Source of the DNA: Candidatus Omnitrophota bacterium
GTDB taxonomy: Bacteria > Omnitrophota > Gorgyraeia > Gygaellales > Profunditerraquicolaceae
Length of the DNA stretch: 58,868 nt
Assembly: GCA_026387355.1 (NCBI GenBank)
Contig: JAPLLW010000017.1
Span: forward strand, 46,556 to 105,423
Direction of reading: 5' to 3'
Numbering within the stretch: the stretch's first letter is position 1; every line of letters starts with the position of its first letter. The position numbers and the translations under genes are program-made. The notes beneath the pieces were generated by a model, which was not told where the DNA came from, did no database searches, and worked only from the letters and a program-made list of their open reading frames with translations. This document shows positions 1 through 58,868 of the stretch, piece after piece.

Positions 1-3000
1 ATGAAGTTACAGTTTTATCATCTGAGCCCCTGATTCCATTAATTATCCTTAATCTCCTTAAGGCGATATCTTTCCTGTGCATTACTGCTACAGCTGTTAA
101 ACCGATAAGCCGTCCAATATCGTGCAAAGCATACTGCTCTCTGCGGAAAGTTCCAATACCATAGTGCAATTTTAAAATTACTCTTTCAGTATAGGTCAGA
201 TAAGTCATTAGCTCATTCAAGTCTTCACGCGGCATTACGAATGCTCTTTGATCCGCAAATCTTTCATGGCGTTCCCTTTTACCCGAAGAATCCGCTTTAG
301 CATCAAGTGAATCTTCCGACTCATGCGCTAAAGCTAATAAACCTTTGACCACATCAACCTTTAATTCGGTTTTTTCGGCAACCTCTTCTGCTGTTGCATC
401 CCGATTCAACTCTTTACTAAATAATTCTCTTGCTCTCAGAACTTTGCGTAGTTCGTCATTCCTATTGTAAGGCACGTGCACCTGCCAACGCATATAACCT
501 CTTCCGGCAAGAATCGCCCCTCTTATCGGTTTATAGATGAAGGTAGTAAGTTTGGCTTTGCCTTTCGGTTGAAATCTCTCTGATATCGCCTTGACCATTG
601 CTAAATACCCATCTTGATAAGCATCCTCATACTCCTGGCCCCTTAAATTCATCTTGCCAAGAATGCTCTTTAATATCCCTTCGCATTTTAAACAGAGCAG
701 GTCAATAATCTCTTGGCGCATCTTACGGAAAACTCTTCGATTCGACCTGAGCGCCCGACAAAGAAAGAAGCTCTCTTTTTTGGTCATGAGCACTCTTCTC
801 TGCTTCATATCTTCCATTAAAGCCCGGACATTCTTTGGATTCAAAAACTTAGTATTAATTCTTACTCTTTTGCCGATGGTAGAAAGTGCTTCCTGATAAG
901 CATCCAGGAGCTGATTCTTAAAGCTAAGCAGAGTTCTCTCACTATCCTTATCGCCAAAATCACGCGCTGCCCCAATCATAGTATCAATAACGTATTGTTC
1001 AGTGGGAAGCAAAGAGTCGCCATTCCACTTTGATTGCGGATCGCGCACTTTAGCTAAAAGCTGCTGGCAGCTGGATGAGACAATAGCAGGAAGCCCTTTA
1101 GCAACATGCTCTTCCATTTGACGGAATAAATCAGCAAATTTTGTGCCTTCGGGATAAACGCCCTTTGCAATTGCAACTTCCAGAAATGCGCTCCCTACGA
1201 CACGCATCTTATCTCTTATCTGCATCGGACTGCCCTTTAGTGTTTGCGGAATAAAATCCGGAGGTAAATAACGGCTCTTTGCCAACAGGTCGCCGAATCT
1301 CACTCCGGTAAGCTCTCTTTCGTTATCACCAGTTACAACCACATACATCTGGCTAAAAGCATTGAAAAGAAGATTGAAAAGCCCTTTCTTATATTCGCTC
1401 TCAAGATAATGTTCTTCGACGGAAATCTTGTAATCCCTGAAAGAAATGACATCAACTATACGTTTCCTGTCCTGCTCGGTTCCACTAAGTGATAAGATTA
1501 CGAAAGGTTCTTCCCTCGGCGCTCCGGTAATGTAATTAGCTGCTTCTACGCGTCCCTCTCTGCGTCCGGACTGATAGGCAATTGCCCTAAAAACCCTAAA
1601 TTCCACAGCCCTTAAGAAGAAATCTTTATTTGATATTTTGCTCTTGGATATCCGCGATCTTAGATCCTGGGTTAAGTTTTCGTGGTATATACCACTTGAG
1701 GAGAATAAAAACTTAGGGATATTATTTAAATCGTAGTTTTTCTCGGTATCCATTCTCTTAAAATACTGGAGTATCTCATCGAGAGAATCACCTAATTTAT
1801 CCGCGAACGGACAAATAAAGATTACTTCGGGAAGAGGATTCGGCTCATTTCTCCCTGCATAAACAAGCCCTTTACGTAACTTTCCTCGAACATCAACCTC
1901 TTCCCCTTCGATAGTTAATTTACCTGATTTCATTACCCACTTTGTAGTCTGACTATTCTTTCTACAGATAAGATAATCCGCTTTAAGATGGGTAAATAAA
2001 GATACGGCGAGATTCCCCACTGGATAAACTCCGATTAGGTCACGTTGAACAGTATTTAATGGCTTGACTGGTACGGTGGTTATTTCTGCGGAGGTGTTTG
2101 AAACAACAAAACAGCCCATGGCAAGTACCGATAGTAACGCAATCGGCGGACCATGCGTGAGGATGGACGAGAGACCGAAAAATAAAACGATTAGGCCGAC
2201 AATATTACGCAACTGGCTAACCTCTACCCTGCGGGCTTCAGGAATCTTAACGTGGAATGTTGCTACGATATGATCTACGGCTTGTAAAATTCTTTTTAAT
2301 GTCTTTCTGATTGTGCCCTTACTCAAATCAGCCTTGCTCATACTAGCATGATTAATGATCGTGCGAGCCTGATGTAACTGACTCTCAATTCTTTCTATAC
2401 TGATCTCTTCGTCTGTACGCGTATCTACTTTCGGCGCAGCCATAGGAAGAGAAACTTTTTTCACTGGAGTTACTACCAACGCGGATTTTCCAACAACTGC
2501 AGCCTGAACCTGAGGGCTAACCACTACATTTTGTTTTATTGTGGCATTTTGACGGGCTCTCTTAATTTTAATAGCCAAATTAATATTATCGCGCAGGCGC
2601 GCTACTTTAGGACCCAAATTAAACGAAGCCCCAAACTTTTCAATTTCTGCTAATAATTTATCCGCATCTTCGACCATTCCAGTTTCATGCATTTTAACTG
2701 CCAAATAAAATACTTCTTGTGCATCCTTACTCACGAATTCAGACTCTTGGAGTAATAAATATTCTACTGGGACCTGCAATAAACAGGATATCCCAATAAG
2801 TTGCTGATAATCTGCTTTATGCGACGGAAGACGCGCATAATAGCTACGCGCAGGCCAATGCAAAAGGCGCTGCAACTCTTCCGGGTTAACTCTAGCAAGC
2901 TTCCTGGCCAGCTCAAGCCGCTCCTGCCAACCTTCTTGCGCAATGATTAACCTACTCCTAGCATACCCGTCAATCTGTGCACGTATCGATATTAATCCGC

Positions 3001-6000
3001 TGATATGACGCGGGTCATATTCTCCCAAGATAATCTTCTCTAATTCAATAAGCGCTGCTTTTCTCTCATCATCATGCCCGCGCTTGCCCTGGCCCGGACC
3101 AAGATAATTCTTTAAATCTCTAAGTGCATGCAATAGTTCCTTAGGAAGACCGCTCTCCGGCCACTCTGCCTTAAGGGCGGCAGCAATAATACGCTCGGCT
3201 CTCCCTTTCCTCTCCCGGACATAAGAACTGCTGAACCCTGCGGCATCCATATGCACATAGAATTCTCCGGATACTTTCACCAGCCCGGAGCAGACAAGAA
3301 ATATGTGGTGGGTCTTATCCGCAACAGGCAAAAGTGCATCTGCAGAAAAACGCATGGCCTGAGATTTAAGTAGCAGAAAATAATCTGTTTTAAAACGGTC
3401 GAACCACGGAGCAATAACTCCGTTTTCAACGCTTAAGGCCGAGGCGAGTCCGCACTCTGCGGCTATGTCTTTAGTAGACTTACCCTCATAAAAACGTTTT
3501 ATTAATGCCTCCGGATGTGCATATCCCGCATAAATAGGATTCTCAAGAATCATTCTGCACTCATCAAGTGAAACCATTTTATTTTCAAACATGAAACGCA
3601 CCTGCTCACGCGTAAGCTCGAGCGTTCTGGCGGGAGCAGCTTTATGCGCTATGGACTCGCCGGAATCAATTCCCGAAATGAGCTTACGGATGGTTTCAGG
3701 AAGACGGGTAGCTTCAATCCTAAATTCCCTGCGGCTTTTGAATTGGGTTTTGAGCTCCTCATATGCCTCATCCACCTCAAGAGGATTACCCCACTCCTTA
3801 CCTATATATAGGAGCCTAAACATCTGCTCAACCCAACCGCCTTTTTTAGAGAGAATATCAATCAACTCATCGGCTTTATTAAGCAGCTGCGGCTGTGAAG
3901 CAATCGCCTTACGACAATCATAAAGCCATCCGGAAAAAAGCTCTTTTATTTTATCGCGCGATTTATCTGCAAACTGCCCCTTAAATTCATCGGCAAGTTC
4001 ATCCAGAGTGAGGTTGCGCAGAAAATATGCTTCAAATACATCTATCCCTTTCAAGTGACCTGAGCCCTGCCTGATTATATTCTGGCGTTCCTCTTTAGTG
4101 AAAAGCACATGCAGATCACGCATCAAGAGCTCAACGAATCTTTGGGGAATCTTCTTCATGCGTCTTGCTTCTCTTTTATAGACAACAGAACCAACTAGCC
4201 CATCTTTTATTATTCCGCAAAGAAGTGGTAGTGCTAATGTCACCAGGAGCACCTTGCTGCCGAATAAAGGTAAAAGCATAAACGCAAAAACTAAACTTAA
4301 AGCCAAGCCTGTAAATCCCCATCTCCAAATAGCCAACTTAGCCACATTATCAACCGGTTTTTTTCCTTTATGAAATTTAACATGTAAAACTACTACTGGC
4401 CTTTTGAGTGCAATCGTATGATCAAGCGCCGCACTAAAGTATGATCCGCTAGCAGCCTCATCCCAGAGTATAATCCTCTTATTACTAGACAATAATTCTG
4501 CGAGATGTCGATTGAAATACGACCCCAGATATCCACAATAAGTTAAGGCTCTACGCTTGGCGCCAGTTAACTTATCAAGTTCCAATAAAACATACGGCCT
4601 TACAGATGGAGAACTATTCCAATCGCTTACTTGCTCATTATCGTATATGCTGTGAAATGAATCGCCTCTTATTAAAACTATCTCTTTGGGATTCAGGCCA
4701 ATTTTACTGAGATCTAACCCATATTTACTTACATCCGGGCCGTTAGGCCAATGAGCAATGGCCCGCGCAAGTTCGCTCTTCCCGCTCCCCGATACTCCAT
4801 CAAATAATATTAATATAGGTAGGAGAGTCTTAATGTTTCTAGTAAAACGCGCGACGAAATCTAACACCTTTCTGATACTACCGGAGTAGGTATATTCAAC
4901 CGGCGGATGATCTATTAATAATCCCAATAGCGGTGAAACTAGAAGCGCCTTAAAACCAAATATAGGTAAAAGACCAAGGAAAAGCCAAGGTAAGAGCAAA
5001 AGACCTAATGCCTTTAACTGTTTAGGGAATTTGAATCCTATTTTTTTGCTAAAATGTTTTCCGTAGAAACCTCGCGGCATCTCTACATTCAAAATATTCA
5101 CCAATTTTATAATGCTATGTTTATTTATTTCTAACCCAAAAATAGCCTCCACAAACTGATGCGTGCTGCTCACCCCCTCAAAAATTAACACTTTCTTTTT
5201 ACTCTCTATAAATTTAATTAATATCCTGCGTAGATTTTCAGTAGAGGGAATCCCGTCTCCTCCTATGTGAATAATTTGACCTCTCTTTAAGCCCATACCA
5301 TTTAGGACCATCCACTGCGTTAACTCTGTCTTCCCTACTCCCTGATCACCGTCTATAACTAAGACTACAGGTTTATTGCTCTTAGCAATAAACCTGCGAA
5401 TTAACGCAATGCCTTTACCAGTATTAAGCAACGAACCCATGAGCTTTTTATTGGGTATAGCGGCGATCTGATCTCTTAGCCATATAGCAGAACGCAATCT
5501 AGCAATGTGTCCTTCGCGCACATTATCTGAAGGTAATCCTGAACCGGCGGAAAGCATCCCTAATATTGGTAGAGCAAAAAGCGATTTCCATCCTAATACA
5601 GGTATAAGAGCACAAGCCAATACTAAAGCCAAATTAGTAGGTGTAGCGAGATTTCTTATAAAACGCTTTACATCAAAATCAACATTACCTTCGGTACCCA
5701 ATAAAACAACTGCTTCTGCATTACGAATAGCAGAAACCTCATTTGCATATTCCAGAAGAGCTTCTCCGGTAATAGCAGTAGTTCCGCCGATAACTGCATC
5801 TTGGCTACCCTTAACCTCATCTAAATCCAGTAACATAAGCGGTGCAGCGCGGTAAAGATTAGACTGCGGATCAACTACAACTCCCGCATCCATATTCTCC
5901 CAAGCAACTTTAACCGCCTCAAGCTCCGGCTTATCCACGGCAATCCCGTCTTCAAAGACTATTTGTTTACCATTTAGAAAAACCAGGGTGGGCTTTGGAA

Positions 6001-9000
6001 ATTTAGGATTAGAAACAAGAGATCCGGCAATAAAGGTTTGAATAAATGCTGAGTAGGGAGTAGTCTGCGCAACAATAAAAGTCGTATTTGGCCGTCGCGC
6101 CTTAAGCGCTGTGCCAATTCCTATTGGCCCTCCTGCACCCACCGGGATAATCAATGCGACTCTTTTACGTGGAGATATACCTACCTCGACAAGTTGACGC
6201 GCTATCTCTAAACCTGCGCTACCATGCCCTGCCATAATCGTTAAACCGCCATGCTCCATATATTCTGCGCAATTTGCCTGATTATGGACAAATCTTTCCC
6301 TGGCAATAAAAGCTGATGCGTAATCAGGATAACGCACATCAATAATTTCTTCTACCAGACGATTTATATCATTATTACCTGTAGCTTTCGCATATTCAGC
6401 AACCATATCTAACATGCCTTGCCGCTTTACTTCAGGAATATTAACGCTGGTAAATATTCTTGGTTTAATATTTAAAACATGCGGGAATCTATTTCTTAGC
6501 TTAGCAATACTTAAAGCAGTAGCTCCGATAGTAGCAATTCCATGGTTGCCGGTTGTTTGAGTTACAGGATTACGATTTCTTCTTATCGCCTGCATCACCT
6601 GCGCAGCCACGCCTCTCATCTTAAAAGACAAACCTACTTGCGTTGATTCGTCTTTAAGAAATACTGGCTTACCAATAATTCTACTTAGCCGCCTCATAAA
6701 TAGAAGCGGGGTCTCTCTAATAATGCCACGTATACTTTTTGTCGCACGATGAATCATACCTTTACTTAAGACGCTGGATTTTCTTCTCGAGTCAGGATTT
6801 ATCCAAACCATACCATTTGTCCCGGTTATTACTCCGGTTAGAAGAATAGGCCCGAGTAGTTTTAGACCAAAAAAGATTACTAAGCCTGCAACCAAGAGAC
6901 TGATAATAACTACAGCTATAATCTTATTGTAATTTGGGGCTTTTTCTGCAACAGGTGCAAGCTTGTTTCCAACATCTAAAATTATTCTCTGTTTTTTTGC
7001 TTCGTTACGTACACGGAAAGGCTCATAGATTATAGAGATCAAAACTAATAAGGCGCAGATTGATAGAAATATAACAAAAGCAGTATCTCCTAAACTTAAA
7101 GCTAATAGCATAATACTTCCCAGCTCGCAAAGTGGGGCTCCTCTGGGCCCAGTTGACCCAAGTTGAATAGCCCAACCTATGTTGGCAATATCGCCCTTAA
7201 TAATCTTTTCAAAATATTCCGGCTTAAAATCTTCAATACCCGCTAAGGCAAATTGCAACTCATCGTTAATCTCAAGGCTTCCGCTAGCTTCCACAGCTTG
7301 TTTTGCTTTATAAAGCGCTCCGCCAAACCCTCCGTAATTTAAAACAATGACTTTCTTGCCGCGCTTAAGCATCTCTATCGCCTCATGCGCTGTTCCGCTA
7401 CCTCCATTTAAAACAATTACTAGATCTGCAATCTCAGAAATAGCAACCCTGCGCTGTAACATATCAATACCCGCGTGCTCAACGACCAGATCCTGACCAA
7501 CAATATTATAATATTCTCGAGGCGCATCCATTCCTTCCGGAAGAAGAACAAAGAATTGTTTTCTAGCTACATCAGGATTGTTTGCAATGAAACCGCGACA
7601 AACATCCACACCCACGCCGCTTACGCCGCCTGTAAATAGATACATATGATTTCTATCAAAATACTGGCTTAAGGATTTCCCTAGAGCTTCTCCGTGTGCC
7701 GAACTATACCCGGTTGAAGGAGTGGTTGCGCCAATAACTGCGATTTTATATCCCGAAAATCTGTTATTTTTCAAAACACTAGTTACTAACCCTAAACTTA
7801 TGACCTTCTTCTTAGCTAGCTCAATTTTTTTACGCTGCATAAATATATTGGATACAATAATAACTCCAAAAGTAAAGACGATCGCAATGATAGCAGTAAT
7901 TAAAATTACAGGAAGAATAGTTGATAAATCAATCGTTGCTAGAGGGAGGGCGAGACATAAAGCTCCCGATGCGGTAGAACCGAACAAAGATCTCTTTAAA
8001 GAATCTTTTATGTAGTAATTTCGAATACTCCTGACAAAATGCGCTCTTATCTTCGATAATAACTCTTTTTTGACTTCCTGACTGCACGGGTAGAATGAAA
8101 CCAGCTTTGCGTATAAATATTCAGCGCTGCGTGCGGAAAATACCGGGCAAGCTGTAAAGACATTTATAAGCCAGCTATAATCACCGAAGAATTTACTGAA
8201 GATATCATCAGCTGAGCTCCAATTTACGCTCTTAAATTCTGCGTATTTTAAATCGAATAATTTGACGCTTTTCGGAGAACGGCCAAAGTAAATATTCATG
8301 CGGTGAGGATGGCCATGCCGTATCCCGAGGTAATGGAAAACAGCTAGTTTCAGCATCAGGCTTCTTAAATAAAAATACACTCTTAATGGATTAATATCAG
8401 CAAGGTCGCAACCACCACTAAGATATTCTGTAAATACGACTCTTTCGCCGGATTGCGGACGGTATATTCCGAAAGGCTGAGGAATAGCTGCGCCGGCGTC
8501 TATTAGTGCAGCGTAGACCGCAAGACTTCTATCTCCCCTCATGGCTATAGCCAGACGCCTACCATTATTTGCATCGCATAAATAGGTATGATGGTACCTC
8601 TCTTTTCTTATCTCTACACAAGTAACCTCTCCTGTTGCCACATTAATAATTTTACCGGCTGCCAAATCAATATTATAAGGCCAGTTTATTTTTGTGGACG
8701 GATCAACCAACTCAATCTGTCTATTCAGAGTTGTCGTAATGCTGGAATAGGAAACTTCGCTTAACTTTACCCTACATGCAGCAGCTGCAGGAAGTAGGCG
8801 CGGTGCCCATTCGCGGAATTCACCCCAGCTCACACCATAGTTTGCAAGCCAACCGGCCATCTTCATCTTAGCAGTCTCATAAGAAAGTCTATCTGCGTCA
8901 TCTGCAGGAACCTTTTCACCGTAACGCATTAAAACTTCTTTCTCTGCGCGGTACAATCCAGAATCCGCACTAATTATAAATAATCCCGTCTCTGCCCTGA

Positions 9001-42000: not shown

Positions 42001-45000
42001 TTAATTGGGCCGGATCGCGCATTGTCCTGAACGCCTTTTTAAGCGCCTCGAGCAAGAGCTGCGTCAACTCCGGATATTTCCATTCCAAACTTTCGCAAAA
42101 ATTGGTGTGCTTTACGGTAACGACCAGCCGGTTAGAGCCCTTCGGGTCAGTTTTTACCTCTATTCTTCCATATCCGTTCCTTGTTCCTCCCACGCCATTC
42201 AAGGTTCGCGAAAGCGAACGGTTGAGCCTGCGCGCGCATTCCCGGGCACTGGGAACCAGCTTAACCCATATGTCGTCTTTTTCTGAGCCGTAAATATTGG
42301 GTATCGCGATCTCGGGCGCAGCTTTTGCTGCAGCTGATATTTGTTTTATTTTCTGATCTACCCATACCAGCAGTCCCATTATTGGCCAGGCGATTAGCAC
42401 ACAAAGGCCGCCGATCCTGATAAGCTCCCAAAAAGGAGAGAAATTAATATGCAGGTTCGGAATTAAATAACGGCAGGCAAGAAAACCCAAAATCAGCGCG
42501 CAAGCTAAACCCATAACCGCATCTTCAGATTTACTTGGCGAAACGTCCTTGCTGATACAGGCTTGCGCTAAATTCTTTGGCGCAGGCGCGTTAAGGTTAG
42601 TGTTAACTGACTTTACTCGCACCACGCCTAACAAACAGCTTGATAATAAAGCCGTCAGCGGGCCGGCAGTTGCCGGATGCGCGATGAGCCCGGCGATGAG
42701 AACGATAATGCTTAATAGAATCAATGGGACTGCGATAAAAGAAGACGGACTTGGAAAAGTAAATGTAGATAAAAATTCTTCGTCACCGAGTTTTTCCAGT
42801 GCATCAAACGCAGCCCGCGCAACATTCGGATCTTTTTCTTTACTCACTAACTCGCGTAACTCTTCAACTGCAGCTTTATCTCCGATTTCACCCAACGCCC
42901 GGGCTGAAACTTCACGGATTCTTGCATCTCCCCCTTTTAGCAAAGGAATAATCATTGCTACTGCCGCGCTTATTTTAAAGACTCCGGCAGCTTTTATAGC
43001 GGCGATACGACAATCCCTGTCCTCTTCCGCAGTAAGCGCATTTAACATCTTTTCCTGCGCCCCTTCTAATCTACAGGCAGCAACAGTGTTTAAGACTCTT
43101 CTTCGAATTACCGGATCGTGATCATCAAGCCAGACCAATAATTTTCCGGGCTCTATAATTTTAGTTCTTATAAGACACTGCAAACAAAGCCAATTACCTC
43201 TTAAAAGGTAATACGCAACTTTATCCGCACTCGCCTGCGGAATCCAGTTAGCGGAACTCAAGATTGCAAGTACTGTCCTGCGGATTTCCAAATCTACCCC
43301 GGGCTTTAAAAACTCAGCTAATTTTATAAACGCAGGTTCGCCGATTTTTTCTAAGCCCTCTTCGGCAACTAAGCTCATCATGGAGCCACGTTCATTTACT
43401 AGGGCATCAATAAACGCATCCACTGCCTCTGCCATTCTCCACTCGCCTAAGATATAGAATGCCCAAAAGCGCTTTGCCCAATCTTCTTTCTGGTTAGCAA
43501 GTTCGGCGATCTTTCCAAATGCAGGTTCACTAATAGCAACAACTGCCTCCACTGCCGCTTTTGATGTGAGACCAAAAACTTCGAAAAGACTAGTTAAAGC
43601 ATCGATAACCTTAGTCATCAACTGCGCATCTTGAATATCTTTACGGGCACCCAAGATTTGCGCTGCGTTTACGCGTACATCCTCGTCATTATTGTTAAGA
43701 GCAGTAAGCAGCGCCTCAATAGGCATATCTTGAGTTAACCCAATTCTTGTCCCTTTGTGCTGCTTTAATAGTTCCGCAAGCTCGGTAGGACTTAATCCTT
43801 CTACTTTTTTCTCCTGCGCAGCAGGCTTTGTTCCCTTTTTATAGAAAAAGTTATACCAGATTGTCGCAAGCACAGCGATAACGGATATAACGATAAAAAC
43901 AATCGTGCCAATGCTTCCGATTTTCGCCGCGGCAAGAAATAAAACCGCGCCTGATACCCAAACCGGACATTGCATTTTGTTAGCGAAATTATCCTGCGCA
44001 ACAACCGCAACCTTTAGCTCTTGCGGGCGTTGCGATGCAATAACCTCATTGTAATTATGCATCCCTTGCGACATAAAATTAATAAGCTCGGAAATACTGT
44101 ACCCATCAAAAGCGAGCATATCGTTGAATTTGAGCGGAGCAAGGTTAATCAATACACAAAGCGCGTTACTGAGAAATAGTGCAAAGGGGATGACTCCGGG
44201 AGTATATAAATATAACAACACCCCAACGATACACACTATAAGATTTACCAATATCCCAGCCGCGTAAAAGAATATTAATTTATTAAAGGAAACATGACCA
44301 AGGCCAAAACCTTCGTGAAATGCAACCGCGAAGAAAACTCGGTTCACCTTAAAATACGCTGGGATACCGATTATCCTTGCCGCTAGCAAATGGCCTGCTT
44401 CATGCACAAATATAGCAAAAAGCGTGATTATGACTGTTAAGATAATGGAACTAATAACTAACAATCCCGCTGACCAACCACCTAGGCTTAATGTTGCAAC
44501 TAATACAAGAATAACAATAACATTGGAAATAACAATTCCGAAACGGAAAACAGAACCACCCGTTAGGTAAAAACGCAGGGTGTCCCCTATAGAAAGGAAA
44601 GGTTTTTGTAAAGTCCTTAATAAGTTCGACGGAAAAACTATAGTAACCCCTTCTCCTTCTGTCTCCATTGAAAGGTCGGGCCTACAAACATCTGCTTCCA
44701 CCGAAATATGCGGGATAGTAGCTAGCCTACGGCTACATACGCGCACAACCGATAATTTCTCACCCTCGACTTTTACATAGGTACGCATGCGCTGCATATC
44801 GGAGAGTTTCGCTCCTACTCTAAATCCGAGTTTGAATTTACCCATGTTCTTCTCGTGCATTAAGTTTTCTTCGGAAATTAGATAAGCGATATTATCCAAG
44901 GTAAGCTCGGTTTGTAACCGGGCATTTGGCCCAAGCCAATCATCGTCGGAGACTTGCGCCTCAAAAAATGGCACAGCTCCTGCGGGAAGCTCAAACATCC

Positions 45001-48000
45001 CTTCAACTTTTCTAACAATAGACCACTGAATTCCCTTACCAAAGGTAGCGCTTTCATCTCTAAGCACAAAAAGATTTTTTGCCTCTTCAAATAATTGCGG
45101 AGATAATTGCTGATTATCTTTGATTATCTCGCGGCAATAATTAAAAGGAATAAACTGGCCCTGTTTTTTATCGGGCTGGATAAGACTAAAGAAAAGTTTT
45201 CTTAAATTAAGAGAGAGGCCTTCAGTAATTCCGCAGTATTCGGTGAATTCACCGCGAATACCGGCTGTACCGGAGACATAAATGATCGCAATCCATTTAT
45301 CACCATACTTCTTCGGGAAAATAAAGCGCATAAAGTAACGAATTATAATATTCAACCTGCCCCTTACAGGGCTATCTTTAATTAATATAACCTTGGCGCG
45401 TTCAAACTTAGGCGTAGCTTTCTGAGTGAGTCCTGCTGTAGCAGCATCTCCTTCGAGAAATTTACCAACATTATATTCATGGGCACTTACTTGAAGCATG
45501 TTCTTGATAGGCGCAATAATCACATCTTTTCTTTGACCTGGGTCAAGGGCGATGATTTTTAACGCTATGCCGCCGCAAGTCATTCCAATGCCGGTAGCCG
45601 CAGGATAACCATTTACCCACTTTGCTTTATTATAAAACTTCTGGCGCCAGTCATTAAATATCTGGTAACGCTGTTTAGTGCCAACGTAATCTACAATCCT
45701 TTCAATATAATTTCTCTGTTGAATTATGTCACTAAAGACAAATTTCTCGCGGGTGAGAATTTTTTCGGTGATTATAAATGCGGCTTCAGATTGTTTTTCA
45801 ATGTCTCCGTCAACATTAACAGTTAAACCACCGGCGTAGAGCCAACGCAAACCATCATGCTTAACTATCACATAACTGAAACCTTCAAGTTCTTTGTATT
45901 CTATCTCAACACCTCTACCTTCATTAGGTCTAATAAACACACACTCCAGCGCCACTTCACTATAATTAAGCGGCGGCTGAGCAATAAAAGTTACCGGAGG
46001 TATATTTTCCGGAGGGCCTCTACCCGAGAATAAGCGAATCCATTCTTTCTGTAATGCAAATTTCTTTTCGCTAAACTCTTTATTAGTATAAGCGCGCACC
46101 AAAACCGTAGCATCAATCATCGAGCTACCGTAATCACTTCCGAGCTTGACTTGCTCAAAGCAATCCGCAAGCTGCTCTTCAGGAGTCAACCCATACTGCG
46201 GGATAACGCTGAAACGGAACTCACGATAAGCGCCCATATCAACAATGCTTGAAGGATAAAGCTTGGCGCGCTTAGAAGCAAGCCATACTGCCCGCAAAAA
46301 TGGAAGTAGTAAATGTGGTTTACGCGCCGATCCAGTTTTTCTCTGCTCATCCATAAGCATCTCTTCAGTCCCTTGTACCCCGCAATTATTAAATATCTTC
46401 TGGTCAGGTTCATTAACTAAACGATACGCCGCTTTGACAGTCTGCATATCGTTATCATATTCATCACGCCAATCATTTTCACCTTGTCCTGCCACCACCG
46501 CGCCCAATAAACAACCTGCCCAGAAAAAACTAGGATCAAACAAGATACCCAGTAACAATAAAACAATGGGCGCAGCTTTTGTAATTGTTGTTACTGCTGC
46601 GGCAGATGAACCGAGCTTCTTGCCTTTATCAGGTAAACTAATAACCAACTGCGCTTTTGGAGCAATAACCGCAGTCTTACTCGCAGGATGCTGGATAACA
46701 GGCTTACCACTATACCCAGGAAATGCCACTGTTAAAGTTGAGAGCTGAGCTCTAAAACGATTTATAGCCTCTAAGATATCATTTTTATGTTCAAGGACGT
46801 AGGCGTTAGAAGCAATTTCTCCTGTCTCTGCCTTCTGTAATTCCGTTACAAATGAATCCAGCGCATTGACCACGGCAAAATCCGCAGAAACCTTTATGGC
46901 ATCAGTAGCAATTCCTGAAGCCATGAGTCTTTCGGCGATACCTTGATAGAACCCCTCCAGCACAGTATCAAAATCCGCAAATCGCTTCCAGCTCTCAAGC
47001 CCTTTTCCGCGCGCCAGCCTCCATCTTTTTTCGTTATGGTCATACAATACACCGGCCGCATAGCGTAAAGCCAGTAAATCCGCAAGCATTATCGCAACCT
47101 TGCGCTTAACAAGTTCACCGCTTGCCTTATCATAGGTAAGATAGTGTCCGGATTCAATATTCCTTACGCTCTTTAGGCAAAGTTGCGGCACTGCATTATC
47201 TTTACCTGAGAGATGCACAATAAAATCATTTAAAGAAACAGTAGTTGCGTCTATTTCATTATACAAAGCAAGGATGCGATAAATCTGGAGCGCTACACCC
47301 CTAACCAATAAAGATGCTTGTATGGGCATGAATTTAATCTTGCCATCAATATTATGCCGTAATATAAATATCAGGCGATTAGGATCAATTATGTTATGAT
47401 TAGAATGATCCTGCTCACCTTGCGGCGGTTGGGCTTTATCATAAGTAGCTTGGACTCTTGGGAAATAATCACTATTAATTTCATTTATTTCTTCTAATTT
47501 AACCGCTCCCATTTCAAGATTGTGGACCCATTGCGTAGTAAATACCGTAAGCGCAGTTCCATCGGCTAACCTTCCCTCGCCTATTTCAAAATTATCCGCA
47601 AGATAATCGGTCTTTATAGCTCTTAATGTAAGCTGGTTATCGAAATCCTTAGACATAAGGCGAACGGCTTCGGAGTCGCGGCTAATATGCACAGCAATAA
47701 ATGCCGGAGTCTTCTTATTATTTACTCTTACCACTAGCTGGAATACAAAGTCGCGCGAGCCTGCCCTTACCGCGACGTCCATTGGCCACTGAATATCCGT
47801 AAATGCAATGCCCGGATCGCCTAGGGCGTCTGCAACAGCAGTGGTCAAGTTTGCAAAATTATCTTTAGTCAGAAAATCTGACATCGCATCCAGCGCCTGG
47901 CGCAGGGTAAACTTCCTTATCTGACCAAAAGCAGTCAAATCTCCAATAGACTTTACTCTGGATAATTCCGAAGAATCAATCTGCGCATCAGAGAGCGGAA

Positions 48001-51000
48001 GAATCTTTTTTTCTGTAAGCAAACGGCTGATAATGTCCGAACTATCATCCGAAACAGCTTCCTCAGTAAAAACGCGCAGATGTTCCCTGCCTAAAATCAG
48101 CGAACTACTAGAACTATTCACCACCACTGCACCCACCAGGAATAAAAATGGGGCGGTTAAAGCCAAAGTTGTAAGAAGTTTGGCCCCAGTTAATAAAACT
48201 ACTGCAGCTCCCAGAATAATTCCGAGAACAACTAAAGAGAATTTGATATCTATTATCCCCTTGGTGTTCCTTGCCTTAATTGTTTGAATCCTTTGAATTT
48301 CTGCCTGGGCTTTACCTTTTAAAGTCTGCGCAGCAGCCTTTTGTTTGTCTCTTTCGCGAACCCTCTGCCAAACACTAACGTCAACCTTAGCTGCATCAAT
48401 CTGTTTAGCCCCTAAAGGAGCCTTAACTTGCTTAGGCATCTCTTGAACACTCAAACGTAGAACAATATTCTCGGGCTTACCGCTTATATTCTGGATCACC
48501 CAATTCTTCCTTCCGTTCTTCGGCGCCCAAACTATACAAAAGGGGAGTGTTTTCCCATCTAAAGAAAGTATGGCGCGGCTGTTTGTGTACTCATAACGCA
48601 CAATTACTTTTTTACCCGCTGCATGATTTTCTCCCTGCCCCACAGAGATTGTTGTGCCGCATCCTGAAGTTGAGCATTTACAGCTTTCATCAAGAGCAAC
48701 ATACTGTCCACAACTAGGGCAGGTTGCCATGAACATATCCCCGCTTGAGAAAATATATTCTGACTGCTTAGCGTCAGTGAAAGAAACAAAGAATATGTCT
48801 TCAGGGTTAACCGTTTTCTCTTGCACAGAATAAATCAGATTCGCGGATTTCTTTGAAGAAGAATTATTGGCTATTACCAATCCTACTACGAAAAGAACAG
48901 CTACGACAATACCGGCTATAATAAACCACTTTCCGCCAAATCCCAACCCGAATATAGCCAATATACAGAGACTGAATGGAACAAGAATCTCTCCTTTCTT
49001 CGCCCCACCGTTGCCATTCCTTATCTCCATAAGTCTTTGCTGCTTAGCCCTGGCAGCAGTAAATTGCGCCTGGTTTGCCGCTTTCAACTTTTCGGTTAGC
49101 TTGACATTTGCCCTTGCCGGATCAACAGCCTTAGCTGCTGCATTATCCTTCGGCGCCTTAGCCGCGGTATCATTATCTTTTTTATTGGTTACGGCATAAA
49201 CCCTAACATTTACCTTTCCTGTATTATAAATTACCCATCTGAAGGTTCCCTTAGTAACTAACTGGATATATACCCTAACATCATCCTTTTTAAAATCTAC
49301 GCTTGCTCCTTTCCCGCTAGCTGAATCAACTGCGGCGCTACTCCATAATGAATCCTCGCCTTTTTCATCAAAGATAAAGAAATTCTCATCTGCCTGAATA
49401 TCTTTTCCAATAATAAACTCACGCGTATCCCCGGGCTTAAGCAAATTCGGATCAACCGCAACTGCTGGCGACTTATCCTTCTTACCACCTAATAATTTCT
49501 TTGCAATGAAAACTACACCTAACATTAACCCAAAAACAAGGCTAATCCAGATTAAGTATTGACCAAATATAAATGTACCGACAATTAATGAACCTGCGTC
49601 AAAGAGATACTTTCCGCTAAGACTAGAATGCTTACCTAATTTTCGAGAAGTTCGAGATAACCTTGCATATGCTAGCTGCAATAATCTGTAAACTTCGTAA
49701 TTATTCGGGTTGATCTCCTGTTCGCGCTTTAACATAGGCAGAGCTAAATCAAATCTTCCGTTAAGTAACTCCTGCTCCACTTCAGGAAGCGAACGGATTA
49801 AGCCTCTAGAAGCTACATTCTTAAGATACGCCGCATAAACCCGCTCGAGGATTCTATAGCCTAATGAAGCAGACTTATGGTTCCTGCTCTTCTGCGCCTC
49901 CAAAATCAGTTTTTGTATTTCTTGCGCAAGTTTCTTTAGTAAGAAATCTGCGTCTTCGCTATCGGATATTGCCCTATATAACCAACCCAGCTGAACGCTA
50001 GACCCCTTAATGTTCTCAAATATCTCCCGAATGACTAAAGGATACTTTCCTTTCACGATTATACCGGATGCGCCATTGATGCTTAAAACAGCCCCCTCCC
50101 TTATTTCTTGGCCGTTTATCTCCCACAAATTACTCTGTTCATCAAAAACTAAATCTTCAATACCTACGATAGAAGCAATACCAAAATCACGCGCAATCCC
50201 TGCCGGATGGCTTGCAATCCCACCTCTTCTTGTAACTAATCCTCCGATTACCTGCTTACCTCTCCTCTTATGGACAACAAGAGGAACGTCTTTACTGGGG
50301 TTAACATCATCGCAAATAAGGATTACACCGTCTAGCTCTAGAGCAATTGCTTTATCAAAGAATTCATTTAGCTTCGACGGATTTAGGCTGTCATTAAGAT
50401 ACACGCAAAGCCCCCTGAAAGCGCCTCCCGAAGAAGGCCTACCTATACTAATAACCTTATCCTTGCGCGGTTCAAAAAGAAAAGTTGGCCCTTGCGCAGG
50501 AAGGTAAGCATCCCTTACCTGCAATGTTTCAACTTCACCATTTTGCACCGTAAATTCATACTCTACGATTGCGCCGCAGAAATGCAGTTCTAGCAGGTCT
50601 AATTTATCAGCTAAGCCCTGGAACCAGGTCTCTTTATTCAATGTCTGCACAACGCGAATCTTCTTGGCGGTATGATCGGAGAGATCCTTACCTTGCGAAA
50701 ACCATTTAAAATCTCCGTGCAAACCAGGCGCAGCAGTATTAGGATTACGGCTATAAACTATCCCTGTGCCGTTATTGCCTCTGATATTTCCATAGACCAT
50801 AGCCTGCACAATTACTGCTGTCCCATCGCCCCAGTCTCCGATTATCCCGCGGCTTTTTCTGTAAGGCTTGGTATCATTCCAAGAATTCTTAATCGCAATA
50901 ATAATTCTGGCTGCCTGTTCATACGGATCATTTGGTATGCTATCCGGTCCCTTTTGACGCTGAATCTCTTTCTTGTATAAAAGCGCTGTTTCGCGCATCT

Positions 51001-54000
51001 CTTCCCATGAAAAATGCTCCTTAAGCTCCTTTTTATACTTGGGTTTCTGTTCATTGATAATATGGTCGAATACAACGTGCGGAATACCGAAAACAGCATT
51101 AGCGTATTCTTCAAGAAACCTGCGGTAACAATCCCAGGCGCTCCAGAGGGCATCTCCTTCGCGTAAACCCCAGGACTTAAATTTGACCACAAGCGCGTCA
51201 AGATTATCTTCATTCATGCCTACGTTAGTAACTGTCGGCATCTGCCCGGGCATAGTAAAGAAAGCGCCGCTTCTTATAGCGACAAATAGCGGCTTATTGG
51301 AATTTCTATCGGCAAAGATATCGCCATATTTAGCAGTTATTCCGTTTACGCTGATATGTTCCTGTAATTCTCTCATTGCATCTTTAAAACGAAGATTTAT
51401 CTCTTCGGCAGACATACCTATCGGAAAGATCATAAAAGGAGGTACACGCATTTTATAAAGTATGGCCCTGAGCAATCCCATACCCTTAGCCCCAAAGAAT
51501 CCTCTTCCGTAATTATGAATCAGTCCATCTATCTTAGCATGCGTGATATCTGTCCCTACTATGTGATACTCTTGAAGAAGGGGATCTTTCCAGAGCTGTG
51601 GAGCAAGCCAGGGATACAAAAGATAAGCATCGGCCTCTTCAACAGCTGCCCGATCCATCTTCTTAAGCTTTTTCTCGGCAAACTTCAAGACTCTATCAGT
51701 AAACTTTGAGAGTAGCTTAAAAGTCGCCTCATCTTCTATCGCGCAGGTGGCAAGTTCGTTTAAAATAATCTGCCTTTTAGTGTCTTCTGTTACTTCTTGA
51801 TCATCTTTATATTTATCCGAGATAAAACGCGAAAGGCACGATAAGGGAAGCGAATTAACCATTCTCTCAACGCTCCCCTTTAGGGATATGCGAAATAGAC
51901 TCTCTGTATCTTTAATATCCCTTGCGATATCCTCTAAGAGATCTTTTATGCGGCTGTAATTTGAATCCTTCGCAGTTAAAAATAAAGCTGAATCCTTAAG
52001 CGATATAGTAATTGAGCATTTGGTCCTGTTAAGCAAAGCTATAGCCGTAATAAGCTCGAGCGCATCTTCAAAATTATCCTCATTGATCTGTGCTAATTCT
52101 CCGGAGATAACATGTTTTAATAGAAATTCTTCAAGCCGAACAAGGTATTTGTCCATAAAATACAGGGCTAATTTCTCATTTTTCAGAAATGCCCCTCCAT
52201 CAGCGTTACCAAGGTCATCAGTCCCATAATCCTCCTGGAATCGCTCGAGCATCTGGCCCGGGTCATATTCCTGTTCGGCAATAACTGCGCGCATCAATTT
52301 ATACCTTATCTTAACTATCTCCTGTATGGCTGACATATAATCATCGCAAGCTAACTGCAAGCTTAATGTAGTATCTTTAAATGAATAGTAACCCATAATA
52401 TCAGAGAATATTCCGCCATACATAGCTTGAACCCTCAGGAGACCTGCTATTATGTTACTAATCCCGCCGCTTAAAGCGTATCTTCTAGCAACTTCCTGAT
52501 ATGCCCATATGTAATCTGTTAATGCCCCTCTACTAGCAGCAGTTGACAGATTAGTGCCAAGTCTGGTATTAATAACTAGATAAATCTGCTTAAGAGCATC
52601 TTCGTTTATATTTCTTAAGCGCTCATAATCAGTCTCTCCTTGGATCTTGCGCACACGCATCTCCTCAAATAAAAGATTCATTATCTTCATCTTATCTGTA
52701 GGCACGCTTTCTCCGAGGTCGTAGATAACCCTTTGAGGGAAAGGAATATTAAATAGCGGTGTCTTTGACTTTGAGAATGCATCAACGGGATACTGCGGAT
52801 TAACCAAGACATTTTTGTCCCCTGTCCTCCAGTACTCAAGCGCCCTCTCCAGCTGGCCCACGCAGTAGACTCCCAGGTAATTATGCATGTTATCGCGTAA
52901 AACACCTTCTACGTTAACACCGTATTCCCCTGTGCGTGTACGCACTCTTAAATCACCCGAAGGCCCGGTTCTTTCCTGGCCGCTTAAGCCACCGGTGAGA
53001 AAAATAAACAATAGGCGCAGCAACTTGTAATTTCTCTCTACGATTGCTCTCGGCATATTTATTATATCAGTCAAAATCCAGAGAGTGCGGCCTCCTGCCT
53101 CAACCTCTTTAGCGCCATGGATTTTAAGCCCCATTAATAAATACGGAACCACATCTTCTATAAGCAGTGGCTCCTGAAGAATCACACTAAGCAGGGTATT
53201 AATAACCTCGTCCTGAAACAAGGCTTCATCGGCAACAATATTGCGTATATGCTTCTCAAAGGCCCTTAAGAATTCCCTGTTTCCGGTTTTTAGAATTTCC
53301 TCTGTAGCCTTAAGCATGGAAGATTTTTCTTTATCGATAGCAAGCTCGGTTTCTTCAAGTTTTCTTGCCGCAGCATAAACCCCCTTAAATATTGACCTTA
53401 CCGTATCTGTTTGAGCGTCAAACATGCCAACAAAATTATCTCCCAGAATTACCGAATTTATTAATTCTGCAGGGCTATTTTGCCCTGTGAACTTATCAAC
53501 ATGGAGCCAACTCTGAGCAAACTCTTTCATTCTTTCGGAGATACCTGATTGAGCCATTAACACATTGAGCGCATCATCATAAACAACCATTTCTTGATTA
53601 AATTGTTTTCTTAATCTCAGTACACCATTATAGGACCTACTCCAGAGAGAAAGATTTTCATTAAATATTGTTTTTAAACATTCCCGCATGGAGTCACACC
53701 ACCCATGCTCGGCAACAATTGCAATATTTGAATCTGACGTTACTTTAATAGCTTCGGAGAATTCCGTGCAGAAATTTCGGGAGATATATTCATCAATCAC
53801 AGCATGAATTAATACTTCTGATTCAGGATAGTAAAAATGCAGGATTTCTTCGAGCATGGTCAATTCAACAATTAAAGCTGGGGGCGCACGCGTTAATATT
53901 GCCCAATGCAAAATAACCTTATTTTTATGCACCATGCCCAGATTGTTCAGATGTGAGCTGAATTTAATCTTTATATCCTGCCTTGAATTTATCCGATCAG

Positions 54001-57000
54001 CCAAATTTTTAATCCTTTTATCTTGGGATATCCTGTTTAAGTGCTCTCTTACCTTTGCAGAGTACCCCTCTAGCCAGGGCTTTACTGTTTCATTAGCCTG
54101 CGAAAGATCAAGGGAAAAATCGCTGTTTAGAAGAATGAGTGTTTCTAACTCTCCCTTATTGCTTTCTCTTTGTGGATTCTCCACTCTTAAGCGCGAAACT
54201 TGTGGACTTGTCGGAAGGAGGAGCAAACTGGATTTATTTAAACAGGCCGCTGCGGTGGATTGATGGTCCCCACCAGCCACGGAAGGTGAACCAAAAACCC
54301 TTTTAATCCGCAGCGACCTAGATGTAGATGCCCGATCTACTACTGGTAAATCTATTTTATTTTCAATAACCCGGCAAAAACCTATAAGCATAGAGGTAAT
54401 ATGCGCTCTATCAATTACAGAATCTGAAATAATTTTCTCAAGTATACTATTAACGCTATGCTCAAGCCCGCTTAAAGCGCCAAACTCATGGGCAATTATT
54501 TTGTGAATATCTTCTGGATTAATTATATCGGAACGGATAATTACTAATTTTTTATCAGGATCATTTAAGGCGAGTACTTTCTTGCTAAGCAAGCTATCTA
54601 ATTCTGTAAATAGCGCAGGAGGCCCGCGGATAACCTGAACATCATGCTTCCTTTTGGATAATATACCCAAACCATTCTCCTCTAGCTTTCTAACGACAAA
54701 TAATAAACATCCCGAATCTAGTCTTTCGCATACATCAAAAGACCCTTCACGCCAGAATCGATCGAGTAAGCCAACCGCTATTTGAGTCTCCTCTGCATCC
54801 AATCCTTCTTCTTCCTGAGTCATTGCCACATCCATTTCGCGTTCACTCTTGCCGCCATTTACTTGAATAAACTTAAGCTCTCTATTCCTATATAAAGCAT
54901 ACCCATAAATACCCGGTCTGTCGGCAGTAATAACATAAACCTTCTGCTCTCCTACGGCTTCTGCTTTAGAACCAAGCGTAATTGACATGCAAAAACAGTT
55001 TGCATTTAATGCCGGATGATGATGCCCGGTGACAAAATACGCATCTAATCCAAGGTGCATTCTTTGTTTAAATCTCGCTACCTCCGCGGCGCCAAATATA
55101 CAAGAAGCCCATTTTGCATGGCATTCCGGCCTGCTAAATGTTAACTGGTAGACTATCGGATCAGCCATATCCAGAGGATTTACCTCACTTATAGTCTTAA
55201 GTGAAGCTACCTCCTGAACAGGACCGGCATGCGCAGCCAACAATTTATCTCCAGCAATAGCCAAAAGCGGGCTAGCCCTTATAAACTTCTTATAGAGCCA
55301 GAAATATACTCCGCCGTAAAGTTTAATTAAGAATCTTTTGTATGAATCCGCCTGGTTTACGTCACCCTTTGAGACATCAAGCAAATTATCGTGGTCCCCG
55401 AGAATAGGGTAGAAATTGTGCGGGTAGGCTATTTTTAAGCGCATAATAATATTCATCATCGCATCAGCTGCGAGCATCTCAGCTAGTTTAGTCTTATGAT
55501 CCTCGCTTTTCACCAGAGGAGAAATGGCACTTGGATGAATCATATCTCCTAATGTTATTAATATTGCCTTACCGCTTCTCATCTTGTCCTCAACTGAAGG
55601 CTCAATATACTCTAGTCCATCGAGCACACCAACCACCTTTGTCTTTCTCTGATGCAGTAAAATGCGGTGTAAATTAGTAATGTTGTCATGCAGATCCCCT
55701 ACAAGCACAACCTCCATATCAGCTGGCAGCTTTCTTAAATCAACCACTGCCCCACTCTGATATTTGCCTATTTTTATGGCTTTGATAAATCTTAACAGCT
55801 GATAATGCTGCGGCATAGAGTGGCGGAATAATAAATAGCTAACTAACATAGCGGCAGCAATTATCCCAAGCCACAAAGATACTACTACCGTAATCTTTCC
55901 TAAAATAGCATAAGATATAACTCCGATTATTGCTGCGTCAAAACATGGTAATTTTGCGTCTGGCTCATGGCTAATACTTTCTGTTTTTTGAGCTAAAGGA
56001 GCAGCAGGCAGGACAGGCGCGCTACCCTTTTTAGAAGTTTTATATTTATTATATAAAACTTCAAGCGCTTGAATAAATCCGGGTTGACTAACTCTCTCTT
56101 CCAAGATTTGCAGCAATCTACTTATATGCAGGGCAATAGGAGGGCAATATTTACATTCTGAATCTGGAAATCCTCTCTTGCTAACTTTTTCTACCTGCTC
56201 GCGGAATACATCCATGAAGCTCTTATTTGGATCTAAAAGATTGCCAAGCGGCTCTGTGCCGGCTAAAGCCCTATGACCACATGGATAGAACTGACCATCA
56301 GAACCTATAGTAGCGCAGAAATATGGATAATAACATTTAGTGCAAACAGTCTCCTTATCATTAACTATTGTAATCTTGATTTTATTACTATATAGCTCTC
56401 TAACTTTTCCTAATCTATGGTCAATTTCTTCTTTTTGTGCGTCACTAAGCCTACTGGGATCAAAATCCATTCTGTATTGGATGCCATGCGCTCCGGCTTT
56501 GATTATCTCCTGAGCAACAAGCTCTATGTCCTGATAATTATCAACACTAATTACAAAACCAACATGAATATAAAGGCCGGTCTTTGCTCGATCAGACTCC
56601 TCACGTAAAATTCGTATACCTTCCATAATAGCTGCGAAGCTGCTTTCTTTTACGCGTTTTGCGATATGCAGCGTTCTGCCGCTTCCGGCATCAAGGCTAA
56701 CCCTTAAATATGCCAAATGAATAAGCTTTCTTGCATATTCCTCACCTTGCCGCGTTTTTAAAGTCAACCCTAACCCGTTGGTAAACATCCTGACGCCCAC
56801 ACCATTCTTTTTCAGGATTTCAATTGCTTCAAGAGTCCTTGGATTTACCAATGGATCTCCAGTTGAACCAACTAATTTTACAAACCTTACTTTATCGCCA
56901 TCGACTTCTGCATCTGATATTTTCCTGATAATAGTAGGCAAATTCTGGTCAATTTTAAGAAGATCCGGCAACCTTTTTTCTTTTCCCCAACACCATTTAC

Positions 57001-58868: not shown

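Follow-up and report, generated by a model that had tools for sequence, protein, structure and literature searches.

A stretch of 58,868 nucleotides from a metagenome-assembled genome of the Omnitrophota (G000:C17:46556-105423, hereafter the window) is occupied from edge to edge by one stop-free reading frame on the minus strand, and most likely represents the inside of a single giant protein-coding gene of the same family as the giant of Candidatus Velamenicoccus archaeovorus. Membership of this family appears very probable. As to function, we consider it moderately probable that the product is an effector or a coat. The assembly under study, G000, comprises 1.59 Mb in 36 contigs and is 92% complete; C17, the contig that holds the window, is 105,423 bases long. 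Giant open reading frames (ORFs) of Omnitrophota as such are already in print, with sizes of up to about 85,800 amino acids (aa), and their function is there called poorly understood.

The open frame and its coding character

A six-frame stop scan found no stop and no N across 19,622 minus-strand codons, from window position 58867 to 2, in agreement with the single open frame that had been claimed in an earlier, sequence-only reading of this DNA. The remaining five frames contain 1464, 1043 and 625 stops on the plus strand and 1948 and 1399 on the minus strand, their longest open run being 906 nt. From base composition alone about 1,243 stops would be expected (ln P of none about -1284), which rules out an open frame arising by chance. 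When segments of 300 codons from the ORF and its continuation beyond the window were scored with the codon usage of the host, the giant frame ranked best of six in 106 of 106, which likewise rules out a succession of genes in differing coding phases. The mean log score of these segments is 0.190 (lowest 0.006), as compared with a mean of 0.199 and a 5th percentile of 0.096 for 205 stand-alone G000 ORFs. Internal start sites are clearly depleted for ATG only: in-frame Shine-Dalgarno sequences followed by ATG occur three times versus 9.8 in codon shuffles, none of them in the 20,993-codon frame described below, and those followed by TTG five times versus 8.3. Furthermore, the first 575 residues of the frame have a paralogue on another contig of the same genome, C14, with 81% protein identity and 89.5% DNA identity; over 530 codons the pair yields a dN of 0.085, a dS of 0.264 and a ratio of 0.32, the changes being distributed 51/38/87 over the three codon positions.

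The window reaches the end of its contig (C17:105423), so that the 5' end of the gene lies beyond the available sequence; no overlap of this end with any other readable G000 contig end was found. At the opposite side the frame continues, as expected if only part of the gene is visible in the window, and meets an in-frame TAG at C17:42441-42443, 4.1 kb past the window. From the contig end to this point it measures 20,993 codons, a figure that includes a 28-N scaffold gap abutting the first base of the window; both flanks of the gap bear the same 8 bases, and 28 + 8 is a multiple of 3. Past the TAG the same phase remains open for 10,977 further codons, to C17:9507, giving a total of 31,970 sense codons if the TAG is no real end. 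We cannot decide whether this codon is a true gene end, a consensus error or a readthrough site. An in-frame stop, which the sequence-only reading had named as the sign that would speak against a single gene, is thus absent from the window and present outside it. The further claim, that this gene ranks among the largest in any organism, holds as regards large size and fails as regards a record, since N-free frames of 30,185, 35,009 and 57,099 codons occur in relatives and published giants reach 39,678 and about 85,800 aa. The proposed affiliation is borne out by SecA-fragment matches, 73 of the best 80 being titled Omnitrophota or Omnitrophica (top identity 85-86%) and the other seven bearing other or no phylum names.

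A crude hydropathy analysis counted 51 and 28 transmembrane (TM)-like segments in the frames before and after the TAG, versus 21 and 13 in one shuffle of each. Multiple TM helices, a trait of the giants of Seymour et al. 2023 (PMC10066038), are therefore present in the 20,993-codon frame as judged by hydropathy only; the size that defines those giants, an ORF of more than 20 kb in an Omnitrophota genome, is exceeded by the 58.9 kb of the window alone. The density of such segments varies widely among giants, with a single one in 15,605 residues of the relative G012.

A conserved head and a replaced body

Two heads of giant genes are readable in G000, one opening the left-end ORF of C17 (ATG C17:7260) and the other on C15 (25954), and they are alike at their start. 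Their layout consists of a hydrophilic stretch, a hydrophobic stretch ending in FLPEQVAQA and, behind it, a C39-like peptidase (Pfam C39, E 2.3e-9); in relatives the corresponding end reads FLPEQ..A-x-A or close to it. We read the N-terminal stretch as a putative signal peptide. The same start stands atop a 57,756-codon frame in G010, which is interrupted by a single 100-N gap and is still open where its contig ends. A model built from the alignment of these three heads has matches in 65 of 128 genomes from the order and, in a phylum-wide draw, in 155 of 384, some only in part (120 of 249 among good assemblies). Seventeen heads were read, namely the two of G000 and 15 loci made up of the strongest matches and four chosen genomes, which is not a random draw; the triad Cys-Gly, His, Asp and the signal-peptide-like end (FLPEQ or close) are present in all 17. 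The shared head offers a handle on where giants start, on how they group within the phylum and on whether they are exported. Another giant begins at the left end of C17 itself (1-7260, L002), which combines a signal-peptide-like head and a C39-like peptidase with tandem repeats of 60 bases at the end of the contig.

Complete giants could be followed from head to stop in three relatives: G097 (30,185 codons, N-free), G096 (35,009, N-free) and G040 (42,913, one 100-N gap). In all three, TadB/C-type genes lie upstream of the giant within about 3.1 kb and solute-binding-protein-type genes lie downstream, followed in G096 and G097 by two permease-type genes. Between giant and importer genes, a PilZ-like gene is found in G097 only among these three, and PilZ genes occupy this place in G000 as well. 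Ten of the neighbour genes were confirmed by Pfam (eight in G000, two in G097), the other gene identities being our own readings. In relatives, then, giants start with the conserved head and lie between Tad-type and sugar-importer-type genes, and the gene of the window would possess such a head too. In G000 the pieces of this arrangement are distributed over three contigs. On C15, a head follows a secretin gene, a ParA-T2SSE gene and two T2SSF genes. C17 carries the giant of the window, two PilZ genes, which lie just downstream of the continuation together with a small membrane-type protein (our own reading), and a head. C14 carries a second giant, two PilZ genes in a stretch that is 91% DNA-identical to that of C17, and a sugar importer. 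With the order C15, C17, C14, a locus that is occupied elsewhere by a single giant would contain two, one after the other. As a separate observation, a Tad-type locus (L094, 7324-8925 and 8933-11098) encodes a secretin with a TonB C-terminal domain and a fused ParA-like/T2SSE ATPase.

The body behind the head is of a different nature. In G096 and G097, two species of one genus, the heads are 72% identical over 296 residues and nine flanking ORFs match at E 1e-20 with about 50-90% identity (the comparison counts matched ORFs only), whereas only 1,617 of 35,009 and 1,605 of 30,185 residues of the giants match, head included. Head and flanks thus stay while the body is almost wholly replaced. The giants of G000, G012 and G029 share only scattered matches of 22-54%, and the body in the window is collinear with no giant compared. 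The only module common to the four headed giants (the left-end ORF of C17, G040, G096 and G097) is the head family, in a comparison that omitted pieces C1 and C15a and matches below 60 bits or outside 60-450 residues. A hint as to how such bodies may grow comes from the C-terminal end of the G096 giant (L263, G096:C9 about 33,500-34,700), which shows 70.6% DNA identity over 874 bases to a surface-protein-like gene downstream of the G097 giant; this likeness would be consistent with growth by in-frame capture. Certain domain families nevertheless recur: CofD, PrmA, GNAT, HAD, M48, HATPase and HEAT are each found in at least two of the giants scanned or sampled (ten 1000-aa pieces each for G012, G029, G096, G097 and C14; the bodies of G010, G033 and G040 were excluded), and GT5 starch-synthase domains exceed the Pfam cut-off in frames of more than 3,000 codons in 11 of 58 relatives.

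The giant of Velamenicoccus archaeovorus LiM is 39,678 aa long, with a Tad locus at CP019384.1:12382-29832, and its peptides have been reported, increased 3-fold in attached cells (PMC10066038). In the one-contig genome G197 the head model matches at base 29,841, and the giant frame, of 39,687 codons, contains a starch-synthase-like domain that passes the Pfam cut-off (E 3.7e-8); frame lengths in the head-model and G197 starch-synthase surveys may include N. We infer from the fit to the printed end of the Tad locus and to the printed giant length that G197 is LiM. The presumed LiM genome carries the same head as the giants described here. As regards the published giants in general, PMC10066038 indicates likeness in phylum, size class, nearby Tad genes and many TM-like segments, and a difference in that most giants of LiM's class have few annotated domains, as opposed to about two dozen of enzyme type in the frames before and after the TAG. 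Among the longest frames in relatives, that of G029:C6 (L085) is N-free over 57,099 codons and opens, with the first bases of the contig, in tandem copies of QKEVLGGKIDE. A 70,450-codon frame in G033 was rejected as a size, as it includes a long N stretch and about 46,400 codons are readable.

Enzyme domains and their active sites

The window frame was scanned in 20 pieces against Pfam and NCBIfam, and recognisable domains are present in the same phase along the window, as had been anticipated (Table 1). Four of the 20 pieces gave no usable Pfam match at E <=0.01, three of them none at all, so that much of the length of the giant is without domain assignment. The continuation adds glucosamine-6-phosphate isomerase-like, PAS, trypsin-like, histidine kinase ATPase, M48, GT1, GH3, GlnD-like, transketolase, 3-dehydroquinate synthase (DHQS), pyruvate phosphate dikinase (PPDK) and HEAT domains, the HEAT repeats lying near its C-terminus. 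In total about two dozen enzyme-type domains were recognised in the two frames. The sole NADH_4Fe-4S match (NuoF type) of the 92% complete genome sits inside the giant. The second giant, C14 99399-151869 (L065, L096-L098), comprises 5,843 + 11,663 codons with one frame shift near 134,340-134,390; ten 1000-aa samples of it contained PFK, GPI, two PGM, phosphorylase, CoaE, AIRS and CofD. A module ..LYHELISHI.. is present in it in 11 copies, whose reading as HExxH was dropped, the actual pattern being HExxxH. A giant frame on C7 is open at both ends over 3,100 codons, and the giant pieces listed for G000 total 196 kb or 12.3% of the assembly, small overlaps included.

Nineteen enzyme domains of G000 were judged by eye against the catalytic motifs of their families (the glutamate dehydrogenase-like, CAAX, isomerase and AIRS domains and the G012 debranching enzyme were left out). 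In 16 the motifs are kept: two phosphoenolpyruvate (PEP)-utilising domains, NuoF, M50, the kinase, the pyridoxal phosphate (PLP) enzyme, the trypsin-like domain, M48, GH3 (NagZ type), transketolase, DHQS, PFK, GPI, two PGM and CoaE. The DHQS of the continuation was compared with 20 stand-alone Omnitrophota DHQS, to which it is 38-47% identical (45.5% to the stand-alone copy that G000 also has). It keeps 57 of the 62 columns invariant in these 20, the five changes being V/M, T/V, L/F, A/C and L/F; in a leave-one-out control, stand-alone rows kept 62/62 to 62/69. The giant copy sits on a long branch (1.9 versus a median of 0.38, one stand-alone row being longer still), and the DHQS tree gave no placement for it (support 80/78). 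The closest solved structures are NuoF (E 1.6e-95), serine racemase (5.6e-11), DHQS (8.4e-61) and a GH3 N-acetylglucosaminidase (2.1e-39). The bodies in G000 consist of one diverged enzyme after another, with catalytic residues that are for the most part intact.

Table 1. Giant frame and domains recognised in the window (positions in the window)
Feature	Position	Strand	Basis and remarks
Giant ORF, internal part	2..58867	-	Stop scan and codon usage; 19,622 codons, open at both window edges
Radical SAM, CPWGHCTFC	58076..58669	-	Pfam and NCBIfam; 81% identical paralogue in C14 giant
Second radical SAM	56480..57034	-	Pfam and NCBIfam
SPASM-like match	56141-56335	-	Under Pfam cut-off
Pyruvate phosphate dikinase-like N domain	50504..51502	-	Pfam and NCBIfam
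PEP-utilising mobile domain	50063..50332	-	Pfam; catalytic His motif GGIASH kept
Chorismatase-like (FkbO/Hyg5)	44654..45832	-	Pfam and NCBIfam
HEAT repeats	42767..43717	-	Pfam
NuoE-like thioredoxin [2Fe-2S] fold	41216..41350	-	Under Pfam cut-off; cysteines not kept
NuoF-like FMN/NADH and 4Fe-4S domains	39719..41008	-	Pfam and NCBIfam, E 1.2e-141; motifs kept
SLOG-like domain	37427..37834	-	Pfam
HEAT repeats	31967..36085	-	Pfam
UDP-sugar pyrophosphorylase-like	30137..30511	-	Pfam
Archaemetzincin-like peptidase M54	27146..27619	-	Pfam and NCBIfam; HEIGH kept, third ligand His -> Glu
Site-2 protease M50	24668..25309	-	Pfam; HELAH and PTDGG kept
Protein kinase-like	23882..24421	-	Pfam and NCBIfam; HND..N and DFG kept
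Response regulator receiver, partial	22052..22201	-	Under Pfam cut-off
Glutamate dehydrogenase-like NAD domain	19253..19864	-	Pfam and NCBIfam
CAAX protease-like (Rce1)	17501..17650	-	Pfam
GNAT acetyltransferase	16583..16912	-	Pfam
SLOG-like domain, second copy	7319..7750	-	Pfam
PLP enzyme, threonine/serine dehydratase-like	6005..6769	-	Pfam and NCBIfam; SFK and GNHG kept
P-loop NTPase-like, weak	5255..5383	-	Pfam
Sigma-70 factor-like	47..709	-	Pfam regions 2 and 3; NCBIfam match over whole length

Possible role and rival explanations

The explanation that we favour overall, with somewhat better than even confidence, is a gene of the giant family that encodes an exported, variable multi-enzyme effector or coat. 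The frame would be translated as one chain, which the head would take through Sec and the C39-like peptidase would trim; the neighbouring Tad apparatus may help in display or delivery and serve contact, and the body may act on or in partner or prey cells. Such action on partner cells would match the predation proposals printed for LiM. The sigma factor, kinase and cofactor enzymes would fit action inside a cell, be it that of the producer or of a partner, better than outside.

Several observations weigh against this explanation. The head of the gene in the window is itself unseen, since its start lies past the contig end and the two heads of G000 are on the ends of C15 and C17; the frame of the C15 head extends over only 409 codons and is then broken near repeats and N gaps, and it is the gene order of relatives (G096, G097, G040) that connects C15, C17 and C14. 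Outside the order, many of the weaker head matches cover the peptidase part only, in frames of about 1,000-5,000 codons, so that the share of genomes with a true giant must be smaller than 155 of 384. These partial matches and the broken C15 frame lower our overall confidence slightly. Behind the TAG stands AGGAG, with a TTG six bases further on, a pattern that resembles a real gene end and start, and in-frame Shine-Dalgarno sequences with GTG exceed expectation (10 versus 5.7 in codon shuffles). The dN/dS ratio of the paralogous stretch indicates weaker constraint than in the two neighbouring PilZ genes (0.065 and 0.080); selection thus keeps the giant protein, albeit less tightly than these. 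No NCBIfam model listed for the window attains its curated cut-off, which makes the domains diverged relatives of their families, and three of the 19 motif sets are altered: the radical SAM domain has one additional residue between its first cysteines, the archaemetzincin has Glu in place of its third ligand His, and NuoE lacks the cysteines. Finally, a sigma factor, a response regulator and NAD-, thiamine pyrophosphate (TPP)- and FMN-type enzymes are of cytoplasmic kinds and would be odd in an exported protein.

A first alternative takes the TAG for a genuine gene end and assigns the frame behind it to a gene of its own, so that two giant genes lie side by side; we rate it just short of an even chance. 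The AGGAG and TTG after the TAG would suit such a boundary, and TAG terminates 45 of the 205 stand-alone ORFs, but the second frame lacks the head that opens the complete giants of G096, G097 and G040, and it is in the same phase. A purely structural coat, i.e. a surface layer or tether of recruited enzyme folds with incidental catalysis, as proposed for LiM, seems to us rather unlikely. The excess of TM-like segments over shuffles, HEAT repeats in the giants of three genomes and the coat proposed for the LiM giant (PMC10066038) speak in its favour. A mere fold, however, would not need the motifs and invariant DHQS columns that are kept, the Pfam matches in the window include no family of adhesion, Ig or cadherin type, and TM-like segments are as sparse in G012 as stated above.

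More doubtful is a chain that stays in the cytoplasm of its producer and channels sugar and amino-acid intermediates. The cytoplasmic kinds of domain would be at home there, as would the PFK, GPI, two PGM and phosphorylase of the C14 giant and the debranching enzyme and starch synthase domains in the giants of G012 and G029; yet all 17 heads read bear a signal-peptide-like stretch, ordinary stand-alone copies exist (DHQS in G000, an ordinary-size GT5 in most of the 58 relatives), and, unlike a pathway, the bodies of two congeneric species have almost nothing in common. Neutral accretion, in which gene copies fuse in frame and decay slowly with little function, is improbable: the likeness between the G096 giant end and the G097 flanking gene and the constraint weaker than that of the flanks could be so explained, whereas the long N-free frames without stops in relatives, a dN/dS below 1, motifs that are mostly kept and the LiM peptides in print (PMC10066038) could hardly be. 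An assembly artefact is least credible of all. The contigs are of short-read type, with 141-base overlaps between some other contig ends, one N gap lies just outside the window and the second giant has a frame break; on the other hand, C17 contains no exact repeat of at least 100 bases, complete giants occur in separately assembled genomes and the one-contig genome G197 has a giant frame.

Polymorphic toxins combine a fixed export head with an exchangeable enzymatic remainder, which includes a C-terminal toxin accompanied by an immunity gene. The giants resemble them in both head and remainder, and differ in being far longer and in having no single C-terminal toxin that we recognised; no immunity gene was recognised among the next genes beside the continuation, where no search aimed at immunity genes was made. 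Polyketide synthase (PKS) and non-ribosomal peptide synthetase (NRPS) megasynthases are likewise very long multi-enzyme chains, a likeness that extends to the giants; unlike these, the window and its continuation have no KS, AT, ACP, condensation or adenylation domain among their matches. It is tempting to speculate, as a tentative possibility, that the giants are a new kind of polymorphic effector, in which a fixed, exported and self-processing head at a fixed locus would carry a species-specific chain, tens of thousands of residues long, of working metabolic, signalling and proteolytic enzymes, built by in-frame capture of gene copies and delivered to partner or prey as a portable metabolism. 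The exchange of bodies within a genus with active sites mostly kept raises the question of whether the domains are active as enzymes and, if so, in which place. It would also be relevant to the making, folding and export of bacterial chains of 20,000 to 57,000 residues.

We found no paper that describes the common head, the replacement of bodies or the enzymes within them, in a search that left aside the West-Roberts 2023 preprint and Kizina 2022, and no claim is made that these features are unprinted. A search for giant pieces in a genome contig collection was fruitless, none was confirmed in a viral contig collection, and a GT1 search returned mostly stand-alone genes. The giants of West-Roberts et al. 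2023 are Omnitrophota proteins that reportedly reach tens of thousands of residues, with secretion and sugar-import genes nearby, and divergent SecA-like DEAD domains are said to be common in them. The G000 giants differ in this respect, since no SecA DEAD-like domain was found in them and only the ordinary SecA matched in the genome. The giant proteins of that study are cited in PMC12057145. Elsewhere in the order, SecA DEAD-like domains do occur, within frames that span 1,915 to 8,199 codons (G048:C38, G049:C20, G020:C213, G030:C110 and G039:C7).

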